This document shows, piece after piece, positions 28,766 through 60,256 of a DNA stretch of 60,256 nucleotides. The notes under the pieces are model-generated. The model was not told the DNA's origin. It did not search any database and worked only from the letters and a program-made list of their open reading frames with translations. Numbering within the stretch: position 1 is the stretch's first letter; each line of letters begins with the position of its first letter. Source of the stretch: Eisenbergiella porci (GTDB lineage Bacteria > Bacillota > Clostridia > Lachnospirales > Lachnospiraceae); contig NZ_VUMI01000036.1 of NCBI RefSeq assembly GCF_009696275.1, forward strand, positions 1-60,256, in the 5' to 3' direction. The position numbers and the translations under genes were made by a program.

Positions 28766-28844
28766 ACCCTCACTCCTTCAGTATATTTTAAAAATCCCAA
28801 ATAACTGTTCAATCCACCTTCACAGCAATTGCCCTGATCTGCTG

Positions 28845-28981
28845 GTAACAGTTCAGCCTTCGGCCGAACTGTTACTGCATCCGCCCATGATAAGTCGCCT
28901 TCGGCGAGGGGCGGCTGCCTGCTGGCATCACGTTTTCTCACGGTTTGCGCAGTAAATGCGCAAACCTGCCTGAACTGTTAC
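28845..28981. repeat. 137-bp structured repeat, copy 1
   Basis: Begins GTAACAGTTCAG and ends CTGAACTGTTAC (12-bp inverted ends). Inside are hairpins at the left end, around CGCCTTCGGCG and at GTTTGCGC/GCGCAAAC. The left arm can pair either with an internal GAACTGTTAC or with the terminal one, so two folds exclude each other. A copy of equal length lies at 32436-32572 in the same orientation. It lies 80 bases upstream of the ABC exporter. The flanking stretch 28982-29190 is AT-rich with no gene seen. Confidence 0.85.
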
Positions 28982-29190
28982 ATTTGCTGTTCCACCTGCC
29001 AAACAGTTACTTGCCAAATTTCCTCGTCTATCGTATCATAAAATCAGGTATATTAAAATTATTATATTTATATATAATCCATACTTTTAACATATATTAC
29101 TCAAATTCCACTCCCGGTTTATTACACCCCATACTCTTAGCAAATACATTACCCAAATTCTGCTCCGGGTTTTACAGTAACCCTCCGGCA

Positions 29191-29477
29191 GCAACCGAGG
29201 CATCCTGGGTCTGGTGTCCCCGACACTTTGGCATCCTGTCCCCCGGCCGGGCTTTCCTGCGGCGGCGTATGCTTTCCGCGGGACGGAGGTGTTTTTTGCG
29301 GGTGTATTTTATACCATGGAGAGGAGACCGAAAAACTGGAAGGTATCCTGACATTTTTTGTCCCGGGCTCATCGGAATGCCCGGTATAACCCGCACCCGC
29401 AAAAAAGCGCCTCCGCCCCGCGGAAAGCATACGCCACCGCAGGAAAGCCGGGCCAGGGGACAGGATGCCTCGGTTGC
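29191..29477. repeat. Long fold-back (imperfect inverted repeat) upstream of LysR gene
   Basis: Arms 29231-29304 and 29394-29468 are inverted copies with only scattered differences. The outer ends GCAACCGAGGCATCCTG and CAGGATGCCTCGGTTGC extend the pairing, with about 30 extra bases on the left. The centre is about 90 bases. Open frames on both strands here mirror each other because of the palindrome, and I do not call them genes. The right arm ends 36 bases before the LysR start. Confidence 0.85.
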
Positions 29478-29513
29478 TTCACACTCAAAAACAATCACAG
29501 GAGAGGTAGATTC

Positions 29514-30416
29514 ATGGAATTAAAACAGCTTTCACATTTTGTAACCGTGGTAAAGGAAGGTACCATCTCCGGCGCCGCCAGGAAACTGAATCTGTCGCAG
29601 CCGCCGCTGAGTACCCAGATGAAACAGCTGGAGGACGAGTTCGGCTGCGTCCTTTTTGAACGCGGTTCCCGAAAAATACAACTGACGGAGGCCGGGCAGC
29701 TGCTCTATGAAAGAGCCGTAACTATGCTGGAGCTTTCGGAAGCAACCCGCAGGGAGCTGCTGGACTATAACAGCGGTCTGACCGGGGCGCTGCGTCTGGG
29801 TGTGGTTTCCTCCGTGGGAAGCAGCCTGCTGCCGCTCTGGGCCGCCGCGTTCCATCAGGCCTACCCCGACATACGCTTTGAACTGTTTGAGGCAAATACC
29901 TATCAGCTCCTGGAACAGCTGCGCTCCAACCTGCTGGAACTGGCCATTGTGCGTACTCCTTTTCATGCTGAAGGCTTTGTTTGCACTTCCCTGTGCGAGG
30001 AACCGATGCTGGCGGTGGGAAGTGAAACCTTTTTCCCGGAAAAAACTGTGGTGCCTTCTGATTCCGGCTGTTTTGACGGCTGCATTACCCTGGAGGCCCT
30101 GAGCCGCCTGCCTCTGATCGTATACCGCAGATGGGAAACGCCCCTGCATGACGCTTTTACCCGGGAAGGACTTTCCCCCTCCTATTTCTGCCTCAATGAC
30201 GATGCCAGGACCTCCGTCCGCTGGGCGGACGCCGGCCTGGGCGTGGGAATCGTACCTGCTTCCTCGCAGCCGCTGCTTCAAAATCCACATACAAAAGTAT
30301 ACAAAATAAGCGACAGCAGACTCTTTACCAGCATTTCCGTTATCCATAACAAAAATGCGTATCTGTCCACTATCGCCCGTATGTTCTTAAAACATTTAAT
30401 CACCCAAATGCACTGA
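29514..30416 (+). CDS. LysR-family transcriptional regulator
   Basis: A 300-residue regulator with the N-terminal winged HTH (about 1-60; MELKQLSHFVTVVKEGT, then AARKLNLSQPPLSTQMKQLE) and a periplasmic-binding-like effector domain (about 90-295). The frame is open 52 codons upstream through the fold-back sequence, but AGGAGAGG just before 29514 and the canonical family start fix the ATG. No obvious divergent target is adjacent; the exporter is over 700 bases away. The fold-back lies in or near its leader and could affect its expression. Confidence 0.9.
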   Translation: MELKQLSHFVTVVKEGTISGAARKLNLSQPPLSTQMKQLEDEFGCVLFERGSRKIQLTEAGQLLYERAVTMLELSEATRRELLDYNSGLTGALRLGVVSSVGSSLLPLWAAAFHQAYPDIRFELFEANTYQLLEQLRSNLLELAIVRTPFHAEGFVCTSLCEEPMLAVGSETFFPEKTVVPSDSGCFDGCITLEALSRLPLIVYRRWETPLHDAFTREGLSPSYFCLNDDARTSVRWADAGLGVGIVPASSQPLLQNPHTKVYKISDSRLFTSISVIHNKNAYLSTIARMFLKHLITQMH

Positions 30417-30454
30417 CCTGCCGCACGGATCGCAGTCCGGATAACAGAACTGTC

Positions 30455-30485
30455 AGTCAAATACCCCGCCGAAAGCAACGGAGTA
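30455..30485. repeat. Decayed partial copy of the hairpin element
   Basis: AGTCAAATACCCCG, a short loop, then CGGAGTA resembles the first hairpin of the elements at 31894 and 32681. It lies between the LysR and YjjG stops and might act as a weak terminator. Confidence 0.35.
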
Positions 30486-30509
30486 AAAACAATATCACTA
30501 TTTTATCTT

Positions 30510-31190
30510 TTACAAAAAATCCTTCAATTCACGCAAATGTCTGATTTCCCGGTCAATCCGCAGTCCCGGGGTATTCTGCTTTCCTGCGGGATTGAACCAG
30601 CAGGCGGCAATCCCGGCATTGTTGCCGCCCTGGATATCCGACGTCAGGGAATCCCCGATAATCATGGTCTTTTCCCTTTGGAAATCCGGGATTCTCTGAA
30701 AGCAGTAGTCGAAAAATTCCGTCTGGGGCTTCTGGTAGCCCACCGCCTCCGACACAAAAATATCCTTCATAAAACGGTCCAGCCCGGACAGCTTCAGCCG
30801 GTTGCGCTGGGTGACCTCCACACCGTTGGTGACCACGTAAAGGTCATATCTTGGAAACAGCCAGTCCAGAACCTCCTGCGCCCCCTCAATGAGTTCATGC
30901 CCCTCTCCCAGCATCATCTGATACTCTTCTTCAAAAGCAACGCCGTCTCCATCGATCCCAAGCTGTTCAAACAGCCTGCCGAACCTGGTAAAAAGCAGCG
31001 TCGGCTTATCTATCTCGCCCCGTTCAAAGGCCTCCCACAGACTATGATTGATCCGGGAATAAATCCGGTAGCTTTCCTCGTCACACGGATAACCATGAGC
31101 CTCCATAGCGCGGTAAAAGGCAGAATGCTCCGCTGCTGAGAAATCAAGAAAGGTCCCGTCCATATCCAAAAGCAAGGTAGTATATTCCAT
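30510..31190 (-). CDS. YjjG-type HAD-superfamily (pyrimidine) 5'-nucleotidase
   Basis: A 226-residue HAD phosphatase. Motif I is LLLDMDGTFLDF (nucleophile Asp near residue 9), motif II is YVVTNGVEVTQ, motif III is the Lys in GYQKPQTEFF, and motif IV is MIIGDSLTSDIQGG. The helical cap sits between motifs I and II. Family members remove phosphate from nucleotides, including non-canonical pyrimidines. AGAGGAAG precedes the ATG. Its neighbours are a LysR gene and an Rpn pseudogene, so context adds nothing. Confidence 0.87.
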   Translation of the reverse strand: MEYTTLLLDMDGTFLDFSAAEHSAFYRAMEAHGYPCDEESYRIYSRINHSLWEAFERGEIDKPTLLFTRFGRLFEQLGIDGDGVAFEEEYQMMLGEGHELIEGAQEVLDWLFPRYDLYVVTNGVEVTQRNRLKLSGLDRFMKDIFVSEAVGYQKPQTEFFDYCFQRIPDFQREKTMIIGDSLTSDIQGGNNAGIAACWFNPAGKQNTPGLRIDREIRHLRELKDFL

Positions 31191-31229
31191 GTTTCTTCCT
31201 CTCTGTTAAAAAAATAATATATCTTAATA

Positions 31230-31270
31230 ATTCTTACAGTCTGCATAGTTAATATGCAGACTGTAAGAAT
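31230..31270. repeat. Perfect 17-bp inverted repeat
   Basis: Arms 31230-31246 and 31254-31270 are exact inverted copies around a 7-base AT loop. It lies 40 bases upstream of the YjjG gene and 70 bases past the Rpn pseudogene stop. There is no clear T-run, so it may be a terminator, an attenuator or a protein site. Confidence 0.7.
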
Positions 31271-31340
31271 ATGCGGCGGCAGCAAACATCCGCTCCATCA
31301 TAGAGCGCATTTAGCTGCCCCTGTTTATATAGGCATTGGA

Positions 31341-32088
31341 TTATTGGTTAAGTAACATCTTAGCTATGTCCAGATCGCTTTTGGAAGAATCCTCCGTTAT
31401 TAAATCGATTGCCTTTTGTACATAAGCATCTTCCAGCTCCAATGCTTCTGAAATTGCAGTAGCATTAAGCCCCTTTTTCAGTTTTCTTCTTATCATAAAT
31501 ACTAATTTTGCTTCTCCTTCGGCACGGCCTGTTTTTAACCCATCCTGTCTTCCTTTTTCAATACCAATCTCAAGAATATTCATCTTTACAGCCTCCCATT
31601 CTTCCGATTGCTTCACTTCATTTACGATTTCATCCAACGTAATAATCCGTTTATCCTTTATCTTGACCTCAGGATTATCAATCGTGGTATTTTTCATATA
31701 CTGCAGCAGGCTTATCAGCTCAGGACATCTCCGTATTAAAACGGCGGTCAGATACATCCCGTGCCCAGGCATCCAGCCGGATAGCCCTTTTCCCGCTCTT
31801 GTTGAGCACTACCTGCTCCACCTCTACATCTGTCAGCTTCAAATCCGGCTCATCCAGAATAATGCTCAGCGTACTTTCATAAGCGGTTTTATTTCCGCGA
31901 GCAACGAGCCAAGTAGCCATGCTTGCATGGCTATTTGGCGACTGCCGCGAGAGTCAAATACCCCGTTGCTTGCAGCGGGGTATTTGACTCTTCATGACAG
32001 ATAAGAATAAAGCAAAATCACTCAGATTAAACTGATAGTTTTGGGACAGCGCCTGCGTGGCAGCCGTTCCGGTTGTCTTAGAATTCAT
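31341..32088 (-). pseudogene. Rpn family nuclease gene broken by an insertion and a deletion
   Basis: AGAGAGG and an ATG at 32088 begin MNSKTTGTAATQALSQNYQF and run to LFLSVMK, a typical Rpn N-terminus. A 96-bp hairpin element then intervenes with a TGA inside. The gene resumes as NKTAYESTLSIILDEPDLK and ARDVSDRRFNTEM. There the frame shifts and a block of perhaps 65 residues is missing. It continues as CPELISLLQYMKN and ends normally with a lysine-rich tail. Two independent lesions make it a clear pseudogene. The inserted length is a multiple of three, so the frame is kept across it. Confidence 0.85.
31894..31989 (-). mobile_element. 96-bp double-hairpin element inserted in the Rpn gene
   Basis: Read on the minus strand it has hairpin 1, a perfect 14-bp stem (AGTCAAATACCCCG with its inverse) and 10-base loop. 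A short CTCGCGGCAGTC link follows, then hairpin 2, a 15-bp stem with one mismatch (GCCAAATAGCCATGC with GCATGGCTACTTGGC). It interrupts an otherwise continuous coding frame exactly between two codons. A related copy lies inverted at 32681-32803. It encodes nothing and resembles a REP or MITE-type element. Confidence 0.75.
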
Positions 32089-32376
32089 AGGCATTCCTCT
32101 CTTTCTTTTTTTGCAGAGAGAACCATGCCTTCTGTGGCTGCACAGATATCCGGCAGCCGCTTTGTCCTCCCTGCTTATTCATTTGTCAGCAAGGAGTTCA
32201 TGCATTACCGTACACATGTAAAAAAGAAAACCTCCGTCAGGCAGAAGTCTGTACATATGTCGTCCATGCACACGCGAAGCTGCGTGCAGATACCGGTCTG
32301 TGGGCTGAATTGCCTTCACAGAGCGGCGCAGAATCTTAAAAGATAAAAAGATTTGTTGAAGTCATTGCTTATCCCG

Positions 32377-32405
32377 ATTGTAGCATACAGATATAGTTTC
32401 TGCAA
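32377..32405 (-). promoter_or_regulatory. Promoter of the Rpn pseudogene
   Basis: On the minus strand TTGCAG, a 17-base spacer and TACAAT. The start of transcription would be near 32370, which gives a leader of about 280 bases before the ATG at 32088. Nothing between them reads as a gene. Confidence 0.55.
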
Positions 32406-32435
32406 CAATTCCTGATAGTATTTATTTGTATAACC

Positions 32436-32572
32436 GTAACAGTTCAGCCTTCGGCCGAACTGTTACTGCATCCTCCCATTATAAGTCGCCTTCGGCGAGG
32501 GGCGGATGCCTGCTGTCACCACGTTTTCTCACGGACTGTGCAATAAATGCGCAGTCCCATCTGAACTGTTAC
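32436..32572. repeat. 137-bp structured repeat, copy 2
   Basis: Same length and orientation as the copy at 28845-28981, with the same 12-bp inverted ends. Differences cluster in the last hairpin, whose arms read GACTGTGC and GCGCAGTC where copy 1 has GTTTGCGC and GCGCAAAC. Two of the changes are compensated on the other arm and a third leaves a G-U pair. It sits between two inverted copies of the double-hairpin element. Confidence 0.85.
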
Positions 32573-32602
32573 ATAAAAATCAACAGTTCAGGCATAAAAA
32601 AT

Positions 32603-32649
32603 CAGGCATCCCGCCGCCGACAATCTCTGTCCGCCTGGTTGGATGCCTG
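32603..32649 (-). terminator. Bidirectional terminator-like hairpin past the fucose operon
   Basis: CAGGCATCC pairs with GGATGCCTG around a long loop. A T-rich run follows on either strand (TCTTTTT on plus, ATTTTTTAT on minus). It would end transcripts coming from the GH29 gene after they cross the hairpin element. Confidence 0.6.
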
Positions 32650-32680
32650 TCTTTTTCACTTATTCATATGTTCTGCGCAA

Positions 32681-32803
32681 TCAAATACCCCGCGGCAACA
32701 GAATATCAAACTTGCAGGGCCGCTAAGCAGCGGGGTATTTGACCCTCGCGGCAGTCGCCAAATATCCATGCAAGCATGGTTACTTGGCTCACTGCTTGCG
32801 GGA
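32681..32803 (+). repeat. Double-hairpin element, second copy, inverted
   Basis: Read on the plus strand it has the same order of parts as the 96-bp insertion read on minus: TCAAATACCCCGC and its inverse around a longer loop, then CTCGCGGCAGTC and the GCCAAATA to TACTTGGC hairpin. It is about 27 bases longer, in the first loop. It lies 31 bases past the GH29 stop. Confidence 0.75.
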
Positions 32804-32834
32804 GTAAACGGAAACCACTGCCAAAGCTGCCGCA

Positions 32835-34310
32835 TCAGTCCACCGTAACCCGGAACACCACCGGCTTATCGGTATTGACGCCGTTCACCTTCACATGCAG
32901 CCCTTCCTCATCCCTGGACCAGCTGCACTCCGAATCAAAGCCGAGAATTTCAACGTTGCGGATGATTCCATGGAAGTTGGGCTTCTTGGAGGCATCCTGT
33001 TCACCCAGCGCGGGGAACAGATAGCTGCCCTCCGGGGAACATTTCAGGGCTGTGGCATAGATATGATCTCCCTTTACCGTGTAGCGCACATCCGCAGGGG
33101 TAAAATCCTTTTTGATTCCATCGGAGAACTGTCCTTCCACAATCTGTGTAGGGCCTTCTCCGTATTTTCTCCACACCCCTGTGTCGTAAATGGACTCCCC
33201 GTTATCTCTCAGCCAGTCGCCTATTTCTGTCAAAATCCGGGTGTCCTCCTCCGAAATGGTTCCGTCCGCCTTCGGGCCGATATTCAGAAGCAGGTTGCCG
33301 TTCTTGCTCACGATATCCACCAGATCACAGATGATATCCTTCGCAGGCCTGAAGTCATTATTTTCCGTATAGCACCAGGAATTCAGAGCAACCGCCGTAT
33401 CGGTCTGCCAGTGGTACGGCTTCACATCCGCAAACTGCCCGCGTTCAATGTCCACCACCGCCGTGCCGAACATGAAAGCATCATGCTTGTAGTTGATGAG
33501 GACCTGCTCACCCCATTCCTCTGCACGGTTATAATAATAAGCGGCCAGCTTTTTCAGGTAAGGCTTAAAGGCGCTGTGCTGTATCCACCAGTCAAAATAC
33601 AGAAGCTTCGGCTGGTATTTATCAATGATTTCGCAGGTTCTTACCAGCCAATCCTGAAGATATTCCTCCGAAGGCTCCGGTTTCCCGTACAGGTCCTGAT
33701 GATCCGGCTCCGCCATGGACGGCCAGTACAGATCCCCTCTTTTCAGAGGCTCCTTAATGTCACTGTCGAATTCCTTTCCATGCCCCAGGAAAAACCAGTG
33801 CTCCGCCCGGTGGGAGGAGGCGCCGCCTATAAGCCCTCTTTTTGCAAAGGCTTCCGTCAGCTCTCCCAGCGTATCCCTCTTGGGTCCCATTTCCCCGGCA
33901 TTCCAGTGGGAAATTTCACTCTTGTACATCTGGAAGCCGTCATGATGCTCCGCTACGGGCACCACGTATCTGGCTCCCGCCTTTTCAAACAGATCAGCCC
34001 ATTCCTCCGGGTTGAATTTTTCCGCCTTAAACATAGGGATAAAATCCTTATAGCCGAATTCCTTATGCGGCCCGTAGGTTTTCACATGATGCTCAAATTC
34101 CGGCGTTCCCTGAATATACATGTTCCGGGGATACCACTCATTGGCAAAGGCCGGAACGCTGTAGGCGCCCCAATGGATAAAAATACCGAATTTTGCCTTC
34201 ACGAACCAGTCAGGCATGGGATGGTTCCCCAGGCTCTCCCAGGTATCCTTATAGGGTCCCTGTGCGATTACTTTTTCTATTTTTTCCAGATATTCCTTCA
34301 GCTCCGCCAT
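32835..34310 (-). CDS. GH29 alpha-L-fucosidase
   Basis: A 491-residue cytoplasmic glycosidase that releases L-fucose from glycans. The catalytic barrel (about 30-365) contains KFGIFIHWGAYSVPAFANEWY and AEHHDGFQMY, and the likely nucleophile is the Asp in LLYFDWWIQ near residue 238. A small beta-sandwich forms the C-terminus. No signal peptide is present, so fucosylated oligosaccharides must be imported first. Its ATG overlaps the fucU stop (TGATG), so it is translationally coupled to it. It is the last gene of the dehydrogenase-reductase-fucU-fucosidase operon. Confidence 0.92.
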   Translation of the reverse strand: MAELKEYLEKIEKVIAQGPYKDTWESLGNHPMPDWFVKAKFGIFIHWGAYSVPAFANEWYPRNMYIQGTPEFEHHVKTYGPHKEFGYKDFIPMFKAEKFNPEEWADLFEKAGARYVVPVAEHHDGFQMYKSEISHWNAGEMGPKRDTLGELTEAFAKRGLIGGASSHRAEHWFFLGHGKEFDSDIKEPLKRGDLYWPSMAEPDHQDLYGKPEPSEEYLQDWLVRTCEIIDKYQPKLLYFDWWIQHSAFKPYLKKLAAYYYNRAEEWGEQVLINYKHDAFMFGTAVVDIERGQFADVKPYHWQTDTAVALNSWCYTENNDFRPAKDIICDLVDIVSKNGNLLLNIGPKADGTISEEDTRILTEIGDWLRDNGESIYDTGVWRKYGEGPTQIVEGQFSDGIKKDFTPADVRYTVKGDHIYATALKCSPEGSYLFPALGEQDASKKPNFHGIIRNVEILGFDSECSWSRDEEGLHVKVNGVNTDKPVVFRVTVD

Positions 34311-36907: not shown

Positions 36908-37282
36908 TGTTTAACCCCTTTCTTTTCTAAAAAAGCAACCGTCAGGACAGTGAACGGCCTCTCTTCTTCAGCCTTCAGCCGCTTCACAGCAGCAGTGACT
37001 ATGTCACAAATTGTGTGTTAACTGATATCCTTATTATAAAAGCTAATGGGAAAAAGTATTAGAGAAGGATTTGACAACTTGCTTCATTTTATGTCGCATC
37101 AGCGCAGGTTTCTTGACTTCCCGGCCAGGAAACGTTACATTAATATATAAGACAGAACGAAACAGGTCAGGCAGGCCCCGCATTACTGCGTTGGCCAAAC
37201 GAATATACGGCAGCAGCCAGCCGCCGGCCCATCACACAGAGCTTTTAAACGGTTGGATGATATTTGAAAGGAAACAGAAGAT
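36908..37282. other. Divergent promoter region of the fucose locus
   Basis: This gap of 375 bases separates the dehydrogenase (leftward) and AraC (rightward) genes. A small palindrome, GTGACTATGTCAC, lies at 36995-37007 and a TTGACA near 37070. No reading frame or RNA gene is apparent. It should hold the control sites of both transcripts. Confidence 0.5.
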
Positions 37283-53644: not shown

Positions 53645-53914
53645 GCAACAAATAAACCGCGGTTCCTTCCCTTCTCTGCAACAGAGACGGTTGAAGCCGC
53701 GGTTCCACTCTAATTCAGGTTAATACCTGCACTCAAAACGCGTAACGTGCGTAAACGTACCCGGCTACAGGAAAACTCCCCTCACCCGATCAGCTCCCGG
53801 AGGCACTTTCAGCCATATCTGCCAGGAATGCTTCCAGCCGGTGACACTCCCTCTCTGCGGCAAACCAACAACCTACTCTTTCCGTTCATCGCCTTTTTCC
53901 TTCATTTGCTATCT
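53645..53914 (-). promoter_or_regulatory. T-box riboswitch leader (cysteine)
   Basis: On the minus strand the leader has a Stem I with GATGAACGGAAAGAGTA, then the specifier. GAAAG-TGC-C at 53803-53805 gives the cysteine codon TGC. The conserved T-box GTGGAACCGCGG lies at 53697-53708. A terminator follows, AACCGCGG pairing with CCGCGGTT and then TATTTGTTG. Uncharged tRNA-Cys would favour the antiterminator and raise cysE-cysS expression. Confidence 0.9.
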
Positions 53915-59986: not shown

Positions 59987-60256
59987 GTGCGACAAGAAGT
60001 CGCATAATGAATTGCTGATAATCAGCTACCCTATCCATTTGGGGTAATCCTACCACAATCTGCGTGAATGGTAACGTTCAGGTGGGAAGCTTGTGGGACA
60101 ATATGGGAAATCTGACAGCCTAAGTCGGACGTACCGTTAGGATAAGAGTGCTATGACGAACGTAAAGTGAATCATCGTAAGAGTCGTTACAGGGAATAAG
60201 TGAAATAAGGCTGATACACTTACACCAAAAAGGTGCGGAGGTGGTCGCGGCGGCTT
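59987..60256 (+). mobile_element. Group II intron, 5' part (cut by window edge)
   Basis: The sequence starts GTGCGACAAGAAGTCGCA, a group II 5' end (GUGYG) followed at once by the first stem of domain I. Further on come stretches of the domain I scaffold such as TGGGACAATATGGGAAAT, CCTAAGTCGGACGTACC and AAGTGAATCATCG. The reverse transcriptase frame would lie to the right. It sits in the acyltransferase gene on the opposite strand. Confidence 0.75.

Follow-up and report, generated by a model that had tools for sequence, protein, structure and literature searches.

A structured, mobile 137-bp repeat of Eisenbergiella porci, probably moved by an ISBst12-type IS66 transposase

The 60,256-nucleotide stretch of Eisenbergiella porci DNA analysed here (assembly GCF_009696275.1, contig NZ_VUMI01000036.1; the window below) carries two copies of a repeat with three hairpins, H1, H2 and H3. 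The repeat is a miniature inverted-repeat transposable element (MITE): it is short, non-coding and multicopy, has terminal inverted repeats and a target-site duplication, and empty sites are found for it. Three copies of an end sequence – left, internal (inverted) and right – and the interior hairpins H2 and H3 make up its layout. It is likely that this element of ca. 137 bp is non-autonomous and depends on an ISBst12-group transposase (IS66 family), which would recognise the GTAACAGTTC-type ends and insert the element, duplicating 8 bp of the target. This would link an abundant repeat family of Lachnospiraceae type to a poorly studied branch of transposases. Genomes are given codes where they have to be told apart: G000 is the window's own genome, G003, G004, G005, G008, G010 and G011 are congeners, and G116 is another genome of the family.

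Mobility and distribution of the repeat

The sequences flanking the repeat were compared for 22 of the 26 near-full-length copies in G000 (loci L005, L009, L021 and L026 were left out). The 8-bp flanks of these full-length copies had a mean identity of 7.14/8; 18 of the 22 matched at seven or more positions, and 11 were perfect. Control pairs, made from the flanks of different copies, had a mean of 2.41/8, and 0 of 462 matched at seven or more. At flank lengths of 4–7 and 9–12 bp, identity stays at 30–36%. Further copies were found with R1, a covariance model of the element whose matches were counted at an E value of 0.001 or better. Twenty of 40 such copies in G000 and 23 of 40 in G005 had flanks matching at 7/8 or better, compared with 12 of 6320 control pairs. 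The two ends of the element are complementary to each other in 94.1% of cells in 31 sequences.

Empty sites, which the earlier note on this DNA had proposed to look for, were sought by joining the flanks of six insertions in G008 and G004 and searching six congeners. Two of the six loci, both insertions in G008, had an exact empty allele in G004, which shows the repeat to be mobile. In each case the joined flanks align to G004 without a break along all 372 of their 372 bases (96% and 95%), and the 8 bp are present once. The second of these sites is also spanned empty in G011 (286 bases, 95%). At locus L057, a G004 match at 85% spans the site and includes 38 extra bases, and the remaining three loci had no clear spanning match in the congeners searched. 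Two genomes can share an insertion by descent, the flanking 8-mer being identical in both: this is so for L092 and L095 (G010 and G003) and for L073 and L076 (G004 and G011). Mobility of the element is well supported.

At one locus in G000 (L263, contig C63, 25489–25760), two elements of different subfamilies lie in opposite orientation exactly 8 bp apart, with near-identical flanking 8-mers, as if the duplication made by the first had been the insertion site of the second. G000 also has a lone 31-bp hairpin with the same sequence as H1 (L035, contig C117, 62715–62745); it has no flanking duplication, and therefore independent movement of the hairpin is not claimed.

There are 115 R1 matches in G000 and 95 in the congener G005; BLAST finds 47 places in G000 at an E value of 0.01 or better. 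Within the genus, a match at 1e-5 is present in 11 of 13 genomes, counting G000. Within the family, at least 22 of 299 genomes and 21 of 298 genera have one, some of these matches being partial; the figure of 22 is a lower bound because two candidates were scored per genome. In a class-wide model search, strictly filtered and limited to eight candidates in each genome, by which absence elsewhere is not proven, 6 of 391 genomes had a match, again counting the window's own, and all belong to the same family. The right part of the element has one exact match in a record named Candidatus Eisenbergiella pullistercoris, a Lachnospiraceae genus. The window copy had no blastn match in phage and plasmid collections, and in viral contigs a narrow test, for exact matches to a 28-base pattern taken from H3 of a common related form, found none. 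A scan of the window with Rfam found only a T-box and a piece of a group II intron, both outside the element, and a permissive scan of six element loci gave one weak match, also outside it. The family is apparently undescribed: searches of Rfam and the open-access literature found no description of it, subscription papers and ISfinder being outside their scope. Among the element matches listed, 18 start within five bases of a contig start, and the element seems to break genome assemblies in practice.

Pairing in the hairpins

The structure formed by H1, H2, the inner stem of H2 and H3 was assessed on an alignment (A1) of 31 sequences less than 90% alike, which was built from sequence only. L026, which has an internal insertion, was left out, and L130 had been left out ahead of an earlier structure analysis. 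In A1, 91.6% of cells are paired, compared with 82.6% after shuffling. Changes on both sides are found in 22 of the 34 pairs (9.5 shuffled) and in 74 cells (17.1 shuffled). None of 500 shuffles reached any of five pairing measures, and slid controls pair at 29–41%. Nine of the ten pairs in the outer stem of H2 and six of the ten in H3 are changed on both sides; the arms of H2 occur, for example, as GCATCCGCCC/GGGCGGATGC, GCATCCGGCC/GGCCGGATGC, GCAAAATCC/GGATTTTGC and GCAAAAGCCC/GGGCTTTTGC.

Because the plain alignment shifts some H2 arms by one column, a register-free arm-swap test and the pair counts were added. Among 32 sequences, own arms bind better on average than swapped arms in every stem: −17.1 vs −11.7 kcal/mol for H2, −16.1 vs −13.3 for H3, −10.4 vs −8.3 for H1 and −12.7 vs −11.0 for the ends. 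Zero of 20,000 permutations did as well, though the sequences are related and so neither this figure nor the shuffle figures for the pair counts are probabilities. In just 12, 11 and 15 of the 32 sequences, for H1, H2 and H3 respectively, did no swapped arm outdo the own one. The loop of H3 and the bulge of H2 are conserved in parts. The stems are conserved through compensatory change between subfamilies, and this covariation is strong, although no column pair was significant in a stricter, tree-based test (below). Eight congener copies (L055, L056, L066, L070, L071, L079, L093 and L094) are 147–152 bp long rather than 135, with the inner stem of H2 lengthened and the outer stem unchanged.

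The earlier note had read matched substitutions in the last hairpin of the two window copies as a sign of selection on pairing. This is supported at the level of the family, by the covariation among the 31 sequences, but apparently not for each resident copy. In the 22 G000 copies there are 37 one-sided changes (10 in H1, 18 in H2, 9 in H3) and nine two-sided ones (0, 0 and 9), all nine of which are Watson-Crick (2.4 expected). Copies with uncompensated arms, which the note had named as a finding that would speak against its claim, are thus present in part. Per site and copy, the rate of singleton changes in G000 is 0.0201 for the stems, 0.0265 for the right end and 0.0223 for the remainder; counting all differences, the rates are 0.0383 in the stems vs 0.0736 elsewhere.

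Since resident copies gain private changes in the stems as often as they do elsewhere, pairing appears to be kept at propagation and not by selection on each copy. We infer that resident copies decay freely and that source copies are constrained. Intact hairpins may matter when a copy acts as the source for new copies; in single-stranded DNA or a read-through transcript, for example, they could preserve the element's ability to transpose, or make its insertion tolerable, and would serve no fixed host function of each resident copy. Two levels of selection are suggested, with structure held between subfamilies and freely lost in resident copies. This pattern makes the need for nucleic-acid folding in the spread of a DDE element testable.

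The left end can pair with either of two downstream copies of the end sequence. As a property of the sequence, this choice between two exclusive folds, also pointed out earlier, stands: most of 38 sequences keep both the left-internal and the left-right pairing. In the 31 sequences of A1, 92.9% of cells are paired between left end and internal copy, compared with the 94.1% given above for the right end. In some sequences the internal copy tracks the left end at places where the right end has diverged from it; position 6 is paired internally in 30 of 31 sequences and with the right end in 24 of 31. In others (GTTACTGTTCACTC, GTAACTGTTCAGTA) the left-right pairing is much the stronger. The predicted fold of the + strand uses the internal copy in 16 of the 38 sequences and the right end in 22; both options are therefore kept, and the favoured one varies. 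It is possible, though doubtful, that the hairpins take an active part in transposition. To be copied, source copies would then have to fold, as single-stranded DNA or read-through RNA, and the internal end would let the transposase choose between a closed left hairpin (inactive) and left-right synapsis (active). The element would in that case be a structure-selected mobile element with its activity set by two exclusive pairings.

The candidate transposase and other explanations

The MITE is probably moved by an ISBst12-type IS66 transposase, a partner that comparison with autonomous elements supports fairly well. In G005, a single frame of 520 codons encodes the transposase P0001, which matches PF03050 (DDE_Tnp_IS66) at 1.8e-17 and scores 130 bits with the NCBIfam IS66 model, under the cut-off of 180 bits. 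The P0001 element has the ends GCAACAGTTCAGAC / GTAACAGTTCAGAC and is flanked on both sides by TAATTGGA, with one extra C on the right; an alternative 9-nt reading, CTAATTGGA, is possible. In G116, a 30% homologue of P0001 lies in a 2358-bp element with the ends GTTACTGTTCACAC / GTTACTGTTCAGAC (of GTTACTGTTCA type) and an 8/8 duplication. Three further full-length homologues carry GTTACTGTTCAG or GTTACTTTTCAC ends. An autonomous element with ends like those of the MITE is seen in G005 and was not found in G000; an IS66-type transposase supplied in trans would move the MITE. The P0001 element is adjoined by a miniature element of 105 bp (L107:2389-2493), whose 8-bp flank is the same and whose interior differs; its inverted ends are longer.

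A standard tnpA-B-C IS66 partner was considered and rejected. IS66 loci were collected from PF03050 hits in the genus and in 20 other carrier genomes and from P0001 searches, giving 54 loci, some of them overlapping, that were scanned mostly with no more than 1500 bases of flank. Ends of this kind together with a flanking repeat were found only in the G005 and G116 elements, besides one 376-bp pair that is due to chance.

In its end motif, its imperfect inverted ends and its 8-bp target repeat, the MITE is like the ISBst12 group. The member ISDge4 (PMC12898284) has a single open reading frame (ORF), a repeat of 8 bp and the imperfect ends GTGACTACTCAGCA / GTAACTGCTCAGCA; the GTAACTGCTCAGCA motif is represented in the MITE by the variants GTAACAGTTCAG and GTTACTGTTCAC. 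Unlike the group, the MITE has no transposase gene, and its interiors match five autonomous relatives only at the end sequence. Its internal third end copy has no counterpart in the terminal 120 bases of these five relatives, compared by eye.

Structured MITE-like repeats are also represented by RUP and BOX of the pneumococcus. According to PMC3049150, RUP is 107 bp long, has 110 copies, is tightly folded with paired ends and is attributed to an IS transposase; it is tied to IS630-Spn1 and is reported from the pneumococcus and S. mitis and, in very rare cases, from further streptococci. The family described here differs from RUP in having matches, some of them partial, in 21 of 298 sampled genera of one family and in its compensatory changes and 8-bp duplication. 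MITEPsy1 of Pseudomonas syringae (PMC3189936) is likewise a short non-coding element (100 nt) with a target duplication, and its movement has been shown; it differs in having a 4-nt duplication, ISPsy2-like ends and 6 copies.

Several results weigh against the ISBst12-type transposase and the constraint on source copies. Direct movement of the element was not observed. In G000 no intact ISBst12-type element was found – its best match to P0001 is 26% identical and has a stop – though the partner could be missing from the assembly because this is in 149 contigs. Few genomes have P0001-like genes: 5 of the 299 sampled from the family do at 1e-40, and of these five G116 alone belongs to the 22 with an element match. 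No IS66 domain match at 0.001 was found in 9 of 20 element-bearing genomes outside the genus, nor in 5 of 13 genomes within it. Three of the five full-length P0001 relatives have no duplication at their assigned ends. The interiors of 75 elements have no similarity to the five autonomous elements beyond the end sequence; there are two hits of 14–16 bases, where the internal end copy meets an end. A tree-shuffle G-test of all column pairs gave none with E below 0.05 over 8911 tests; limited to the ca. 30 helix pairs, it gave two pairs in H1 and two in H3 below 0.05 and none in H2. The step from resident copies to constraint at propagation is based on 22 copies of one genome.

An unlikely explanation of the compensatory changes is that they are mutational, with template switching during replication copying one hairpin arm onto the other and no selection on structure. 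This would suit the like behaviour of both strands over all copies, the lengthened inner stem of H2 in several congener copies, and an extra palindromic block within H3 of at least two G000 copies, which resembles a template-switch product. With 37 one-sided changes left uncorrected and 9 compensated in G000, however, correction from arm to arm is not efficient, and the loop of H3 and the bulge of H2, which are also partly conserved, speak against this origin too. Two copies with the extra block (L266, contig C98, 16951–17099; L267, contig C106, 87779–87927) are 149 bp long, have nearly the same H3 block and have 8/8 duplications each; a template-switch-like change has seemingly propagated.

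It is quite unlikely that the element is a structured cis-acting RNA, in mRNA leaders or between genes, kept by host selection as a stabiliser, attenuator or insulator. Such a role would fit the covarying stems and a bias in placement. Genes were called with a simple codon-score script in place of a gene finder. Of 130 elements found, 120 had enough flank, and removal of four shared insertions and three overlaps left 113. Between co-directional genes these are antisense more often than sense (55:24, p 0.0006); the ratio is 22:3 in G000, 22:15 in other species of the genus and 11:6 in other genera. Two further sets gave 14:8 and 21:6 (p 0.006), and the pooled ratio, with one doubly counted copy removed, is 89:38 (p 7e-6). 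Divergent intergenic sites outnumber convergent ones by 53:5, where the 53 may count one site (L031/L263) twice. However, the orientation bias is significant in only two of the five sets (22:3 and 21:6), and under strict gene scores no set falls below p 0.05 (33:19, p 0.07, and 9:4 and 10:6 in the further sets). Replication-fork orientation in G005 gave no support (16 of 41 co-directional, with the origin at dnaA and the terminus assumed opposite). The biased placement suggests a transcription-linked cost or benefit and does not show an RNA function. The right end is often near the stop codon of the upstream gene, with 30 of 59 distances at 36 bp or less.

The strands themselves were compared as well. 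In G000 the minus strand, which would be the transcribed one, folds better in 19 of 23 copies, and one-sided changes that leave A-C outnumber those that leave G-T by 18:8 (p 0.076; G-T:A-C is 1:7 in H1, 3:8 in H2 and 4:3 in H3). With the orientation bias itself, these make three results in G000 that lean toward the minus strand, which is not a proof. Over all copies the minus strand is the better in 37 of 74, so that the strands fold equally well, and there is no Rfam match. Private stem changes in resident copies, as frequent as those elsewhere, are a further point against host selection. The case for an RNA role is weak, and the description of the repeat as RNA-like was not established.

ERIC repeats are imperfect intergenic palindromes of ca. 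127 bp in enterobacteria; compared by description, not by sequence, the present element is like them in length, palindromic form and intergenic sites. It is very improbable that the element belongs to a REP/ERIC-like family of intergenic palindromes or is a degenerate IS of another transposase family (IS200/IS605 or IS630): it is short, mostly intergenic, palindromic and high in copy number, but the precise 8-bp duplication does not fit IS200/IS605, which makes no duplication, or IS630, which duplicates TA.

The copies in the window

The features of the window are given in Table 1. The two copies had been described earlier as equal in length with 12-bp inverted ends, and both points hold: each copy is 137 bp, they are 90% identical, and the ends of each are fully complementary. 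Each copy also contains the third, internal inverted end copy. The motif GTAACAGTTC occurs 12 times in the window at up to one mismatch (1.76 expected), and six of the 12 are inside the two copies. The changes described between the H3 hairpins of the two copies are seen as stated, including a single T-G pair in copy 2. On either strand, both copies fold far better than dinucleotide shuffles, with z from −4.6 to −6.3 and 0 of 200 shuffles as good. Copy 2 has no clear duplication, its flanks matching at 4/8.

Table 1. Coordinates of the element copies and other features in the window
Feature	Position	Strand	Details
Left target-site duplication of copy 1, ATCTGCTG	28837..28844	.	7/8 identical to 28982-28989
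Copy 1 of the structured MITE	28845..28981	+	R1 score 151.4 bits
Copy 1 hairpin H1	28845..28875	+	left end 28845-28854 and internal inverted end copy 28866-28875
Copy 1 hairpin H2	28877..28918	+	outer stem, arms 28877-28886 and 28909-28918; inner stem, arms 28895-28899 and 28903-28907; bulge on one side between these
Copy 1 hairpin H3	28942..28966	+	arms 28942-28951 / 28957-28966; loop GTAAA
Copy 1 right terminal inverted repeat	28970..28981	-	12 bp, matching 28845-28856 exactly in inverted orientation
Right target-site duplication of copy 1, ATTTGCTG	28982..28989	.	matches ATCTGCTG at 7/8 positions
Decayed relative, without most of H1 and inner H2	31224..31318	-	R1 score 34.3 bits, E 6.9e-7
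Copy 2 of the MITE	32436..32572	+	R1 score 146 bits; 90% identical to copy 1
Copy 2 hairpin H1	32436..32466	+	
Copy 2 hairpin H2	32468..32509	+	
Copy 2 hairpin H3	32533..32557	+	arms GGACTGTGCA / TGCGCAGTCC
Copy 2 right terminal inverted repeat	32561..32572	-	
Decayed relative	37159..37275	-	R1 score 32.6 bits, E 1.8e-6
T-box leader	53680..53898	-	109.9 bits (Rfam scan)
Group II intron domain match	60027..60136	+	67.8 bits; close to contig end

The statement in the earlier note that no frame runs through the repeat was not accurate. A mechanical ORF at 32426–32848 (+, TTG start, 140 codons) crosses all of copy 2, and a second, at 28945–29523, begins within copy 1. Neither showed any sign of being a gene; the element is crossed by mechanical ORFs only and is non-coding.

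In the decayed relative at 31224–31318, the arms of H3 are altered yet largely complementary. Copy 1 sits 79 bp upstream of an ABC transporter gene on the minus strand, with a LysR gene on its other side pointing away, and copy 2 sits 262 bp past the 3' end of an alpha-L-fucosidase gene.

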